From positions 1 to 43,677 of the forward strand of contig JAABRM010000062.1 in assembly GCA_011390955.1 (NCBI GenBank): 43,677 nucleotides of DNA, written 5' to 3'. The stretch's first letter is position 1; each line of letters starts with the position of its first letter. This DNA comes from Oscillatoriales cyanobacterium (lineage in GTDB: Bacteria; Cyanobacteriota; Cyanobacteriia; Cyanobacteriales; Laspinemataceae). The notes beneath the pieces were generated by a model. It did no database searches. It was given only the letters and a program-made list of their open reading frames with translations, and had not been told where the DNA came from. A program made the translations under genes and the position numbers. Shown piece after piece: positions 7,386 to 20,071 of the stretch.

Positions 7386-8178
7386 AGGCTACAATAAATT
7401 TTGACCAGATCGTTTACTGGTATGGAACAGACCACAAAAGATAATATCACGCCGTGCTGACAATGCTAAAAAAAAATTAAATAGGTATTTTTCTAGATCG
7501 ATAAAATATAAAGATTTCACTTTATTCTTGCTTTAATTATAACGTTGTCTTATTTATTCAATCAGGTTTTTTAGTGATATTTTTTTGCATTAAAAAAGTA
7601 AAAAAAATATTTACTCTGCTCCAGATTTAGCTAAGATCCGCCAACAAGTAAGTATTCCTTGACATTTTCGCCTGATTTCTCAAAAAATCGCCCATGAAGT
7701 TGTTTCGCGGCGGGAAGAAGATTAGCGATCGAGGGTATGGGATCTATCGGCGTGGGTGGCAAAACAACAGCGATCGCCCCTACCCCAGAAACCCAAAACA
7801 TGGGTGATGGTTTGGAGATCGCCTAATTAATTATTGCTTATCTGTCACAAATTATTGCTGACACAAATGTTGCAGCAATTTTATATGCAACAAACATCGT
7901 TCTAGCGTTGTAACTATATTTTTTGCCATCCGGGATCGACAAAAATCCGATGGTTCAGAAGCAGCAGGGGATGCAATTATTTTTGTCCCCTTGCTTATTT
8001 CTTTGAGTAGACTTGATGACTGAGGCGATCTGAGCTAGGCGATGATTCACAAATAGTCAGTAAAGAGAAATCTCTATGCTTCACAAATAGTCAGTAAAGA
8101 TAAATCTCTATAGTTTGGGAAAAATCCCGATTGTTAGCGGATCATTTTTTGTCTAAATCGTCTGTAGCGCTATTTTAA
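7386..8178. other. Long spacer upstream of the atp operon
   Basis: No convincing gene is seen in 793 bp. A 37-codon frame at 7693 has no supporting features. The AT-rich stretch 7440-7640 is the likely location of the atp operon promoter, but I cannot place -10/-35 boxes with confidence. A direct repeat with a 34-bp period lies at 8046-8111 and is listed separately. Confidence 0.5.
8046..8111. repeat. Two direct repeats, 34-bp period
   Basis: Two 32-bp copies (8046-8077 and 8080-8111) differ at one base. Each contains CACAAATAGTCAGTAAAGA and ends in AAATCTCTAT. They sit 68 bp beyond the stop of the small membrane protein gene at 8179-8391. The duplication is recent by its identity, and its function is unknown. 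Confidence 0.8.
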
Positions 8179-15905: not shown

Positions 15906-16332
15906 TCTTATGCTGTGGTGTTTTTGGGGTAATTTAGTGAGAATTACTTTTATTAATTTGACTATCGGGCAACGGTGCAACCCTCAGTTGCCTACCGTCG
16001 CCACCTTTTTTTTCGCATTCCACCGTTAACTGCTGATATTCACCAGAGAAACCCGGTTGCTTCATTTAAATTTTTATTTAAATTTTTATTTTCGCCAAAA
16101 ATTAAGGTTTTTTTTAGATTTATCCTCAAAAAAACCATCTGAATCATCAGGTTATATTCCCGCCATTAAGTTTTGGGATGAAGTTCATCAGTTTACATAG
16201 ATTTACTTACATAGATTTACGGAAAACGATCTAAGATAGTACAATAGTATCACCGAAGATTCTCCTAAAAAATTTATCCTTGAGTAAGAAACGGGTTCCG
16301 AGGAATGGGAAAAGGATCCGTTATCACTGTAG

Positions 16333-16392
16333 GTGACATCTTGAGTGACAGATTGGGTGACATCTTGGGTGACATCTTGGGTGACATCAAGG
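16333..16392. repeat. 12-bp tandem repeat upstream of kaiA3
   Basis: Five units of GTGACATCTTGG with point variants lie 147-206 bp before the kaiA3 ATG. It is either a remnant of coding sequence, since 12 bp keeps a frame, or a spacer repeat that could affect kaiA3 expression. Confidence 0.85.
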
Positions 16393-16538: not shown

Positions 16539-17432
16539 ATGAGTAAACAAGTCTGCAATGTGTTATTGATTGAAAACGATCGCAGCCACTCAAAACTCAT
16601 CCAAGCACTGTTGTGTGACACTGAACCGGGTGGTTTAGCTAAAGATTTTTCTTTTCAGGTGACTGAGGTGGAAACCCTGAAGGGTGGACTAGAACAACTG
16701 GAGAAAAACCACTTCAATGTCATTTTGTTAGATTTGATCTTACCCGATAGTCAGGGACTCGATACATTAGAGCAGACCCTAAAACATTCCCCTCATACCC
16801 CGATAGTCGTACAAATCGGCAATGAAGAAGAAAGCTTAGTCGTCCAGGCTTTGCAGTTAGGCGCATTAGGCTTTTTACCCAAACAAAATCTTGATAGTAA
16901 TTTGCTAGTTTATGGGATCCGCTTGGCCATTGAACGGTATCTTCTGACGACGAAAATAGAAACAGCCAAACAGCAGCAAGAACAAGATTTGGAATTTGAA
17001 TGGCTGGAGCAGTTCGCCGAAAGTGGCAGAACCAATATCACGGCAAGATTGTACGGTACGGTCAGCCTCCAGGATAGTTGTCCCGAAATTTTTCGCGATC
17101 ATGTAGAAAATTATGGTAGATTAATGGATTTAGCATTAGAAGAACAAGCCTATAAAGTTGAACATGATCTTTCTAACCGACTGCGTACCCAGGCGGAAAA
17201 GTTAGGACTGCTCAAAGCTGGCCCACGAGATGTGGTGGATATTCATACCACCGCATTGAAAGAAAAAACTAAAATGGTTAATTTGGCCAAGGCTCAAGCT
17301 TATGTCGCCGAAGGACGATTAATGGTTTTGGAAATGATGGGCTATTTGACTTCATACTATCGCAAATATTATTTAGGATTAAGTAATATGAAAATATATA
17401 AATCTTCCGGTAATGTGAAGCAAGACTTATGA
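16539..17432 (+). CDS. kaiA3: KaiA3-type clock protein: receiver domain fused to KaiA-like domain
   Basis: The 297-residue product has two parts. Residues ~5-130 are a two-component receiver: acidic pocket Glu12/Asp14 (LLIENDRSHSKL), phosphoacceptor Asp65 (VILLDLILPDSQG) and Lys115 (FLPKQ). The usual Thr/Ser is Ile93 (VVQIGNEE). Residues ~175-285 are an all-helical KaiA/RsbU-N-like domain (DVVDIHTTALKEK, GRLMVLEMMGYLTSYYRKYY). Classical KaiA has instead a pseudo-receiver without the aspartate. This chimera matches KaiA3 (Sll0485) of Synechocystis 6803, which promotes KaiC3 phosphorylation. ATG 16539 is chosen over the frame start at 16485 because it begins just before the first receiver strand. 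Its stop overlaps the kaiB3 start (ATGA), so the two are coupled. Confidence 0.88.
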   Translation: MSKQVCNVLLIENDRSHSKLIQALLCDTEPGGLAKDFSFQVTEVETLKGGLEQLEKNHFNVILLDLILPDSQGLDTLEQTLKHSPHTPIVVQIGNEEESLVVQALQLGALGFLPKQNLDSNLLVYGIRLAIERYLLTTKIETAKQQQEQDLEFEWLEQFAESGRTNITARLYGTVSLQDSCPEIFRDHVENYGRLMDLALEEQAYKVEHDLSNRLRTQAEKLGLLKAGPRDVVDIHTTALKEKTKMVNLAKAQAYVAEGRLMVLEMMGYLTSYYRKYYLGLSNMKIYKSSGNVKQDL

Positions 17433-17704
17433 AATACTTACTCAAGTTATATATCACGGGAGATTCACCCAGATCCCAACGAGCGATCGCTAACTTAATG
17501 CGAATTTGCGATCGAGAACTTTCAAATCAGTATGAATTGAAAATTATTGATGTCCTGGAACAACCGGATGTGGCGGAAAACGAGAAAATTATGGTTACAC
17601 CTACTTTAATAAAACAATTGCCGCCGCCGCTGCAAAGAATTATTGGGGATATGTCGAAAACTGAGCTAGTTTTGCTAGGGCTGGATATCGATAATCAAGA
17701 ATAA
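17429..17704 (+). CDS. kaiB3: KaiB3-type clock protein
   Basis: This 91-residue thioredoxin-like KaiB has the family blocks LKLYITGDSPRSQRAI, LKIIDVLEQPDVAE, IMVTPTLIKQLPPP and RIIGDMSKTELVLLGLD. It lacks the acidic C-terminal tail of the classical 102-residue clock KaiB. KaiB changes fold to bind the phosphorylated KaiC CI ring and sequester KaiA. The 4-bp overlap with kaiA3 and the downstream kaiC3 identify it as the cognate partner; assignment as KaiB3 instead of KaiB1 rests mainly on that context. Confidence 0.93.
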   Translation: MKYLLKLYITGDSPRSQRAIANLMRICDRELSNQYELKIIDVLEQPDVAENEKIMVTPTLIKQLPPPLQRIIGDMSKTELVLLGLDIDNQE

Positions 17705-17997
17705 TGTTGGTTGTTGGTTGTTGGTTGTTGGTTGTTGGTTGTTGGGTAGGGATTCTTTGGTTGTTGGGTAGGGATTCTTTGGTTGTTGGGTAGGGATTCT
17801 TTGGGTAGGGATTCTTTGGTTGTTGTTTTTGTTTTTTGTTCGTGGTTCGTGATTATGGTTAAATCGGCAAAATAACCAATAACCCATAACTAATAACGGC
17901 TGAATATGGAAGATCGAATGATAAATTTAGTAGGATTTTGCCTGATTCAGTTTGCCCTGAAGAAAATTATTTAAAGCAAGTAAAGTAAGTGAAAGCA
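17705..17997. repeat. STRR array between kaiB3 and kaiC3
   Basis: Five or six GTTGGTT heptamers (17706-17743) lead into a 22-bp unit containing GGGTAGGGATTCTTTGG at 17744, 17766 and 17788, and a shorter 15-bp step at 17803. The rest of the spacer is unique. The same GGGTAGGGATTCTTT word occurs inverted in the coding region of the histidine kinase at about 27890. Confidence 0.9.
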
Positions 17998-19512
17998 ATG
18001 AGTAGTTTTGAAAGTAACACGGATTTTATTGAAAAGCTAGAAACGGGAATTCCTGGCTTTGATTTCTTAGCCGAGGGTGGCTTACCAAAAGGTCGAGCAA
18101 CTTTAATTGCGGGCACCGCTGGGAGTGCCAAAACGGTGTTTGCTTGTCAGTTTTTGGCGGAAGGCATCAAAAGAGGGCAAAATGGGGTTTTTGTCACCTT
18201 TGAAGAACCTCCCAGCGCAATTCGGAAAAATATGAAGGGCTTCGGTTGGGATATTGCTCAATGGGAGAAGGAAGGAAAATGGGCGTTTGTGGATGCCTCT
18301 CCCCAACCGGGACAAAAGCCACTGGTATCCGGGGAATATGATTTAGGTCCTTTATTAGCCCGAATTGAATATGCGATTCGGAAATATCATGCGGTGCGAG
18401 TTTCGATGGATTCTTTGGGGGCAATTTTTAGCCACTTAGAAGATAGTGCTCAAGTACGCAGTGATTTGTTTAGTATTGCGGCGGCATTACGAGAATTAGA
18501 AGTGACGGCAATTTTGACTGCTGAACGTACCGAAGAATATGGTGATATTAGTCGTTATGGGGTGGAAGAATTTGTGGCGGATAATGTGGTGATTGTTCGG
18601 AATGTTTTGACCGAAGAAAAACGCCGCCGCACCATTGAGATTCTGAAGTATCGGGGTACAGAACACCAAAAGGGAGAATTTCCGTTTACGATTATCCCCA
18701 AACGAGGGATTGTGATTTTGCCTTTGTCAGCTATTGAGTTAGAACAACGCTCGTCTAATGTGCGGATTTCTTCCGGCAGTGAGGAACTGGATCGGATGTG
18801 TGGGGGAGGCTTTTTTCGGGATTCAATTATTTTAGTTTCTGGGGCGACAGGCACGGGCAAAACCCTAATGGTGACTGAGTTTATGGCCGGAGGAATTGCA
18901 AATAATGAACGGTGTTTGTTGTTTGCTTTTGAAGAAAGTCGGGAGCAACTTTATCGCAATGCGATCGGTTGGAATGTGAATTTCGATCAAATGGAAAAAG
19001 CCGGTAATTTAAAGATTGTTTGTCGTTACCCAGAAAGTACCGGCTTAGAAAATCATCTGATTATGATGAAGGAGATTATTGACACTTTTCAACCGAATCG
19101 AGTGGCGGTGGATAGTCTTTCGGCTTTGGAAAGGGTATCATCCCTGAAAGGATTTCGGGAATTTATTATTGGTCTGACTTCTTTTATTAAGCAAAAAGAA
19201 GTGGGCGGTCTATTTACTTCGACTACTCCGTCTTTAGTGGGTGGTACTTCGATTACAGAAGCGCATATTTCTACGATTACTGATTCGATTATTTTATTGC
19301 GATATGTGGAAATGTATGGGGAAATGCGTCGGGGCATTACGGTGCTGAAAATGCGCGGTTCTATGCATGATAAAGATATTCGGGAATTTTCTATTGATGG
19401 CAAAGGGATGCATATTGGTAAACCTTTTAGAAATGTGGTGGGTATTTTAGCTGGTTCTCCGAGTTATGTGGGGGAAACTGAGGTGGAAAGACTCACGGGT
19501 TTATTTGAGTAA
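17998..19512 (+). CDS. kaiC3: KaiC3-type double-domain RecA-like clock ATPase/kinase
   Basis: The 504-residue protein has duplicated RecA-like CI and CII domains. The CI P-loop is GTAGSAKT (39-46), where classical KaiC has GTSGTGKT; this form is characteristic of KaiC3 (Slr1942 type). CI catalytic glutamates are Glu69/Glu70. The CII P-loop is GATGTGKT (282-289), with Glu312/Glu313. The autophosphorylation sites Ser425 and Thr426 (AHISTITD) and the nearby Thr420 are all kept, so phosphorylation cycling is possible. The C-terminus is short after the SPSYVGETEVERL segment and differs from the KaiA-binding tail of KaiC1. ATG 17998 is preferred over GTG 17989. It lies 293 bp after kaiB3 on the same strand. 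Confidence 0.93.
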   Translation: MSSFESNTDFIEKLETGIPGFDFLAEGGLPKGRATLIAGTAGSAKTVFACQFLAEGIKRGQNGVFVTFEEPPSAIRKNMKGFGWDIAQWEKEGKWAFVDASPQPGQKPLVSGEYDLGPLLARIEYAIRKYHAVRVSMDSLGAIFSHLEDSAQVRSDLFSIAAALRELEVTAILTAERTEEYGDISRYGVEEFVADNVVIVRNVLTEEKRRRTIEILKYRGTEHQKGEFPFTIIPKRGIVILPLSAIELEQRSSNVRISSGSEELDRMCGGGFFRDSIILVSGATGTGKTLMVTEFMAGGIANNERCLLFAFEESREQLYRNAIGWNVNFDQMEKAGNLKIVCRYPESTGLENHLIMMKEIIDTFQPNRVAVDSLSALERVSSLKGFREFIIGLTSFIKQKEVGGLFTSTTPSLVGGTSITEAHISTITDSIILLRYVEMYGEMRRGITVLKMRGSMHDKDIREFSIDGKGMHIGKPFRNVVGILAGSPSYVGETEVERLTGLFE

Positions 19513-19844: not shown

Positions 19845-19868
19845 ATTCGGTAATTGCCTGTATATTGA

Positions 19869-20071
19869 AGAACCCGGGTTTCTGTGGTGAATATTATAAG
19901 TTAACTGGTGAATGCGAATCAGAAACCCGGTTTCTGTGGTGCATATCAGGAGTTAACGGGGGAATGCGAATAAGAAACCCGGTTTCTGTGGTGGAATTCG
20001 GACAAGAAACCGGGTTTCTATGGTGAATTTCAGGAGTTAACGGTGGCATGAGAATAAGAAACCCGGTTTCT
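19869..20071. repeat. Tandem array of AGAAACCCGGTTTCT palindromes
   Basis: Five 15-bp palindromes start at 19869, 19921, 19973, 20005 and 20057. Steps are 52, 52, 32 and 52 bp. The segments between them share the words GGTG, CAGGAGTTAACGG and GAATGCGAATA, so the true unit is 52 bp. Because the segments between the palindromes are alike, this is not a CRISPR array. The palindrome itself is a well-known dispersed cyanobacterial repeat. Confidence 0.85.

Follow-up and report, generated by a model that had tools for sequence, protein, structure and literature searches.

A linked kaiA3-kaiB3-kaiC3 cluster as a probable second Kai oscillator in a Planktothricoides-related cyanobacterium

Introduction

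In Synechocystis sp. PCC 6803, KaiA3 promotes and KaiB3 opposes the phosphorylation of KaiC3, and the three proteins together give a circadian rhythm of KaiC3 phosphorylation in vitro that is damped and temperature-compensated, with free-running KaiC3 phosphorylation rhythms also reported in cells (Kobler et al., 2024, PMC11372060). Sequestration of KaiA3 by KaiB3 is described there as possible and not demonstrated, and the C-terminal fold of KaiA3 as one known from KaiA and RsbU. Autokinase activity, ATPase activity and rhythmic phosphorylation have been reported for Synechocystis KaiC3. Canonical KaiA was without effect on the KaiC3 proteins of Cyanothece and Microcystis (PMC5520375), which fits the existence of a dedicated KaiA3. 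The kaiA3B3 pair is ‘usually extended by kaiC3’, with Synechocystis, Microcystis and one Chloroflexus given as exceptions (PMC11372060). Here we analyse a stretch of 43,677 nucleotides from an Oscillatoriales cyanobacterium (assembly GCA_011390955.1, contig JAABRM010000062.1; hereafter the window), in which kaiA3, kaiB3 and kaiC3 form one linked cluster.

The cluster holds the same three families as the Synechocystis set, with kaiA3 directly upstream of kaiB3, a KaiA3 that is a putative receiver/KaiA-like chimera, Ser-Thr phosphosites in KaiC3 and a coexisting kaiABC. An earlier sequence-only reading of the window named Sll0486 and Slr1942, which we take to be the Synechocystis loci for KaiB3 and KaiC3. 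The same reading noted that kaiC3 is unlinked in Synechocystis, in contrast to its position here, and this is so stated by Kobler et al. (PMC11372060). The linked kaiA3B3C3 clusters that the paper describes from other cyanobacteria and bacteria have the same order and families, and differ from ours in details only: the Planktothricoides-related host, the repeats in the spacer and certain receiver residues. The locus is thus a further example of the clusters described in 2024 and not a new system. Compared with classical kaiABC, the A-B-C order is the same, residues equivalent to KaiC T426/S431/T432 are present and the mode of working would be the same; against the classical set of its own genome, KaiC3 is 55% identical to KaiC1 and KaiB3 52% identical to KaiB1, and the KaiC3 tail after the A-loop region is shorter than in classical KaiC.

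Results and Discussion

Identity of the cluster

The three genes lie in order on one strand, as the sequence-only reading had described, and the linked kaiA3-kaiB3-kaiC3 arrangement is confirmed (Table 1). The kaiA3 stop and the kaiB3 start share a 4-nucleotide overlap, ATGA, so translational coupling of the two genes is likely; for kaiC3 an alternative start is possible at GTG 17989. Pfam places a receiver domain (PF00072, E = 1.1e-15) at the N-terminus of KaiA3, a KaiB domain (E = 1.6e-30) in KaiB3 and two KaiC ATPase domains (E = 3.9e-119) in KaiC3. The KaiC3 P-loop, GTAGSAKT, occupies residues 39–46, and the phosphosites T420, S425 and T426 are all retained, at the residues given by the earlier reading. 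Among named records, Planktothricoides sp. SR001 comes closest, with 92% identity for kaiA3 and 98% for kaiC3.

Table 1. The kai cluster (16539-19512) and other features mentioned in the text. Coordinates are window positions unless preceded by a locus label; nt, nucleotides; aa, amino acids.
Feature	Position	Strand	Description
Upstream repeat	16332-16388		upstream of kaiA3; tandem repeat of 12-nt GGTGACATCTTG units
kaiA3	16539..17432	+	ATG 16539, stop 17430-17432; 297 aa; frame open; receiver ~1-120, long linker helix, putative KaiA-like helical C-terminal domain ~176-290
kaiB3	17429..17704	+	ATG 17429, stop 17702-17704; 91 aa; frame open
kaiB3/kaiC3 spacer	17705..17997	+	293 nt; 7-nt and 22-nt tandem repeats
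kaiC3	17998..19512	+	ATG 17998, stop 19510-19512; 504 aa; double KaiC ATPase domain; frame open
Downstream repeats	19868-20029		downstream of kaiC3; tandem repeats of 52- and 32-nt units with motif AAGAAACCCGGTTTCT
Cluster remnant (kaiA3-like stretch), genome G194	L165:198-1289		with in-frame stops
Cluster remnant (kaiA3-like stretch), genome G229	L166:1127-1703		with in-frame stops
KaiB-domain protein, contig C25	L053:481-1290		269 aa; KaiB domain C-terminal
Oxalobacteraceae locus	L095:7000-10035		KaiA3-like C-terminal stretch, kaiB, kaiC

The assignment to the KaiA3/B3/C3 type, proposed from the sequence and now supported, draws on all three proteins. In a maximum-likelihood tree of 47 KaiC rows the window protein falls inside a 29-row KaiC3-side group (support 99/97), outside which lie 15 KaiC1 and 3 KaiC2 rows; it does not group inside KaiC1. 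Labels in this tree were assigned by identity and neighbours, and the tree carries a long-branch warning, foremost for an Oxalobacteraceae row. Window KaiC is 62–98% (mostly 82–86%) identical to other cyanobacterial KaiC3 proteins, 54–56% to KaiC1 and 34–37% to KaiC2. Window KaiB is placed among kaiC3-linked KaiB proteins (a 24-row group, 96/82) in a tree of 48 rows, where support is weaker because the protein is short: the alignment is correspondingly short and 8 of 44 inner branches are well supported. Both trees are of chosen subsets.

The protein encoded from 16539 is a full-length KaiA3 orthologue. Full-length orthologues are found in named Microcystis, Crocosphaera, Prochloron, Roseofilum and Planktothricoides genomes, and the C-terminal domain is the best-conserved part of the protein. 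A scan of named genomes, which may omit records of the window's own genome, gave 42 KaiA3 loci that by their titles comprise 33 cyanobacteria, 7 Chloroflexota, 1 Oxalobacteraceae metagenome-assembled genome and 1 unclassified bacterium. Kobler et al. place kaiA3 upstream of kaiB3 and describe a Microcystis KaiA3 receiver in which the Asp is missing and, in M. aeruginosa NIES-843, a kaiC3 that does not follow kaiA3B3 (PMC11372060). Our seven Microcystis loci agree, with kaiA3 upstream of kaiB3, kaiC3 non-adjacent and D65 absent, and it is this match that anchors the label KaiA3; the label KaiC3 likewise draws on the loci of Microcystis and others, together with the description in PMC11372060.

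The window is part of contig C79 in an assembly of 7.12 Mb. Contig C40 of the same genome carries a classical kaiA-kaiB-kaiC, so that kaiA3B3C3 would be a second clock. The sequence-only reading had noted that the window lacks a classical kaiABC and had suggested looking for one elsewhere in the genome; none is seen in the window, and the KaiA model PF07688 matches only the C40 gene. The genome has two double-domain KaiC proteins, and no KaiC2 was found in it; contig C72 encodes a SasA-like kinase that includes a KaiB domain. The window thereby adds a filamentous cyanobacterium equipped with two complete KaiABC sets, and Planktothricoides goes unmentioned among the open-access papers listed in our search on the subject.

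Distribution and linkage

We surveyed 243 genomes of the order, with a KaiC3 cut-off of E ≤ 1e-190. Canonical KaiA is present in 233 genomes, KaiA3 in 43 and KaiC3 in 40; KaiA3 and KaiC3 occur together in 38, KaiA3 alone in 5, KaiC3 alone in 2 and neither in 198 (Fisher p = 1.8e-36, uncorrected for relatedness). KaiA3 and KaiC3 are inherited together. In the window's family both are found in the same 4 of 14 genomes, and eight genomes of one other genus of that family have a KaiC2-like second KaiC instead (36–37% identical). All 43 KaiA3 carriers have canonical KaiA, and KaiA3 is absent from all ten genomes that gave no KaiA match. The five carriers without KaiC3 at the cut-off are G042 and G222, each 61% complete, G167, in which kaiA3 and kaiC3 are each split over two frames, and G194 and G229, discussed below; in G222 a KaiC3-like gene adjoins kaiA3B3 at the contig end.

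Linkage of kaiC3 to the other two genes, which the sequence-only reading implied to be new, is given as the usual state in PMC11372060 and is frequent here, and we do not claim it as a novelty. kaiC3 follows kaiA3B3 in 30 of the 42 named loci and is linked to it in 21 of the 43 carriers of the order. Most carrier stretches reach 3–5 kb downstream of kaiB3 and some less; some linked kaiC3 genes may be missed, since a contig edge can hide the link. Our sample holds more unlinked cases than the available text of PMC11372060 names, with kaiC3 about 63 kb from kaiA3B3 in one genome (G108) and about 2.5 Mb away, by the coordinates shown, in another (G052).

The KaiA3 receiver

The five usual phosphorylation-site positions of receiver domains correspond to 12, 13, 65, 93 and 115, which in the window KaiA3 are E12, N13, D65, I93 and K115. 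Compared with most orthologues, the window receiver keeps D65 but has Ile instead of Thr/Ser at 93, and Asn at 13. Ile at 93, the place of the switch Thr, is common to all three genomes of the genus, and Asn at 13, the place of an acidic-pocket Asp, is found among these three in this genome only; the two substitutions make a phosphorelay input to this clock doubtful. All five site residues are kept in 17 of the 40 carriers whose aligned frames include a receiver (those of G167, G194 and G229 do not), with D65 in 27, Thr/Ser at 93 in 35 and Lys at 115 in 25; these carriers are related, and seven of them belong to a single genus and share the same site residues. Loss of D65 is seen also at the named loci of Roseofilum, Chlorogloea and Hydrococcus, the last of which may be the Pleurocapsa lineage that Kobler and colleagues name as an exception. 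Amino-acid differences to SR001 number 16 over the 145 residues of the receiver part and 7 over the remaining 152; the synonymous rate (dS) is higher in the receiver part too, and its ratio of non-synonymous to synonymous change (dN/dS) is not raised, which is evidence against the receiver of this genus decaying freely.

Judging by the site residues, receiver phospho-input has probably been weakened or lost in several lineages, perhaps including the window's genus, where the KaiA3 receiver may no longer be a normal phospho-switch. We offer more tentatively the idea that, as in classical KaiA, the receiver of KaiA3 has turned into a pseudo-receiver, here on repeated occasions, and that the Planktothricoides clock might, D65 notwithstanding, receive a non-phosphorelay input such as a ligand or the energy state. 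The frequent degeneracy of the receiver is a detail beyond the accessible text of PMC11372060, and the loss of site residues bears on how input reaches the second clock.

Proposed mechanism

We put the probability that this orthologous kaiA3-kaiB3-kaiC3 operon is a second Kai oscillator beside the classical kaiABC at about 85%. Our analysis itself establishes the gene content and order, the orthology, the co-inheritance and the purifying selection; binding, phosphorylation, rhythm and physiological role are inferred from the Synechocystis proteins. On that model a KaiA3 dimer would bind hexameric KaiC3 and raise its autophosphorylation at S425/T426, KaiB3 would next bind KaiC3 and counteract KaiA3, and KaiC3 would then dephosphorylate, allowing the cycle to restart. 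The outcome would be a damped, roughly daily rhythm that is linked to the main clock and tunes dark or heterotrophic metabolism. The sequence-only reading considered an independent phosphorylation oscillator possible. The retained phosphosites agree with the oscillator; its independence has to be qualified, given the canonical KaiA of every KaiA3 carrier sampled and the finding that the two Synechocystis systems are phase-locked and interconnected (PMC11372060). As a single compact unit, the three-gene cluster could be transferred to a laboratory strain.

It is also conceivable, if rather unlikely, that the set is not self-sustained and acts as a KaiA3-assisted hourglass or metabolic-state timer driven by ATP/ADP, in which KaiC3 phosphorylation tracks the energy state through day and night and does no more than tune the main clock. 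The damping of the Synechocystis rhythm in vitro (PMC11372060) would suit such a timer, as would the loss of conserved switch residues from the receiver in this genus and the presence of canonical KaiA in 43 of 43 carriers, so that no sampled genome depends on the KaiA3 set alone; outside the cyanobacteria, Rhodospirillum rubrum is described as being without KaiB1 and KaiC1 (PMC11372060). However, the rhythm in vitro is circadian and, though damped, temperature-compensated, and rhythms free-run in cells (PMC11372060), which argues against such a timer.

The C-terminal domain of KaiA3

Several points weigh against the oscillator reading, most of them concerning the KaiA nature of the KaiA3 C-terminus. 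In the Pfam scan of this genome, PF07688 was not reported in this domain, unlike in classical KaiA, and a profile of 16 KaiA3 orthologues run against the PDB matched no KaiA at E up to 1. Aligning KaiA3 with canonical KaiA by hhalign gave E = 0.0028 with a probability of only 10.8%; one of 300 column shuffles scored as well, and the reversed control reached 23.8 against 24.2. The structural matches to KaiA described below have E values of 0.15–0.53 (probabilities 0.85–0.98) and rank behind a designed scaffold. In addition, two genomes (G031 and G178; loci L202 and L203) have a KaiC3-like gene, 62–63% identical, without KaiA3, and the Synechocystis set, including Sll0485, is likened to ours by published description and not by sequence. 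Direct sequence proof that the C-terminus is KaiA-like was thus not obtained, the Pfam, PF07688 and PDB profile searches being negative and hhalign marginal, and what sequence there is argues weakly for kinship: a joint KaiA3/KaiA alignment has few common columns, among them an I-H pair and, towards the end, a Y-R pair.

Structure prediction is more favourable. An AlphaFold model of the C-terminal domain alone is a helical bundle (mean pLDDT 85.6, pTM 0.72), and in a Foldseek search of the PDB five of the first ten rows are KaiA C-terminal entries (four chains of 5jwr and one of 1q6a), the other five being designed scaffolds and a viral protein; RsbU (1w53) appears at rank 36. The presence of both KaiA and RsbU agrees with the published view of this fold (PMC11372060). 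The full-length model has receiver and two-component structures as its top matches. The alignment behind the full-length model held the window and 27 of the 42 named loci, six of the seven Microcystis loci, the Crocosphaera-type L074, L078 and L079, and L088, L089 and L092–L095 being left out; that behind the C-terminal model held the window and 30 of the 42.

Could the protein upstream of kaiB3 be an ordinary response regulator that stands beside KaiB-KaiC by chance, its C-terminus no functional KaiA? The negative Pfam and PDB profile searches and the marginal hhalign result are what such a protein would give. We nevertheless regard this as very improbable, for the C-terminal domain is the best-conserved part and no DNA-binding domain was found in Pfam at E up to 0.001; the helical-bundle model with its KaiA and RsbU matches, the co-occurrence with KaiC3 and the ability of the Synechocystis orthologue to promote KaiC3 phosphorylation (PMC11372060) all point the other way. 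It is on the published Synechocystis work that the proposed function of KaiA3 would rest, rather than on the structure and sequence matches.

Some KaiA3-like domains occur in other settings. Five Chloroflexota loci (L088, L089, L092, L093 and L094) encode proteins of 417–655 amino acids that combine PAS domains, in some cases alongside a recognised receiver, with a KaiA3-like domain at the C-terminus; at four of these loci kaiB and kaiC lie downstream of the fusion gene, and the L089 stretch ends soon after the gene. Variable KaiA N-termini are discussed in PMC8113500, the main text of which does not contain the terms PAS and Chloroflex. In the Oxalobacteraceae genome the KaiA3-like C-terminal stretch is directly upstream of kaiB and kaiC, with 4-nucleotide overlaps, and the frame before it, perhaps receiver- or PAS-like by eye, breaks near 8000. 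G031 and G178, with no KaiA3 profile match within the 9.0 and 9.5 kb fetched, have a kaiB and kaiC3-like pair followed by a frame of about 650 amino acids that by eye resembles a receiver/PAS/histidine kinase.

Selection and decay

Relative to SR001, dN/dS (NG86) is about 0.11 for kaiA3, 0.04 for kaiB3 (89 codons) and 0.05 for kaiC3, with 23 amino-acid against 80 nucleotide differences in kaiA3, 1 against 7 in kaiB3 and 8 against 72 in kaiC3. The three genes are therefore maintained under purifying selection, and these substitutions, together with full-length orthologues in the same order in many genomes, show that the cluster is not due to chance. Elsewhere in the order, G194 and G229 retain only kaiA3-like stretches, which lack the EGR motif invariant in the 31 rows of the second alignment. 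Near the G194 stretch is a piece resembling kaiC3 residues 12–70 (E = 3e-6), and near that of G229 one resembling kaiB3 residues 2–43 (E = 2.5e-4). Both genomes are absent from the KaiC3 list, G194 having KaiC1 only, and G173, a larger congener of these two small genomes, keeps the whole linked cluster. The broken pieces fit loss of the cluster as a unit, and this apparent decay in two genomes emerges from the wider survey together with the tight KaiA3/KaiC3 co-inheritance and the loss of receiver site residues in several lineages. That the window's cluster is itself a decaying relic beside the main clock is very improbable: such remnants do exist in two other genomes of the order, but here there are three open frames, strongly purifying substitutions and intact phosphosites.

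Other features

The protein with a C-terminal KaiB domain on contig C25 shows no further Pfam domain at E up to 0.001. A consensus scan of the kaiB3/kaiC3 spacer was at chance, with 12 promoter-like matches against 9.3 expected and 4 terminator-like matches against 4.0, and is therefore uninformative. Measured to the upstream GTG of kaiC3, the spacer is 284 nucleotides here compared with 201 in the congeners G001 and G002, and further tandem repeats flank the cluster on both sides (Table 1).

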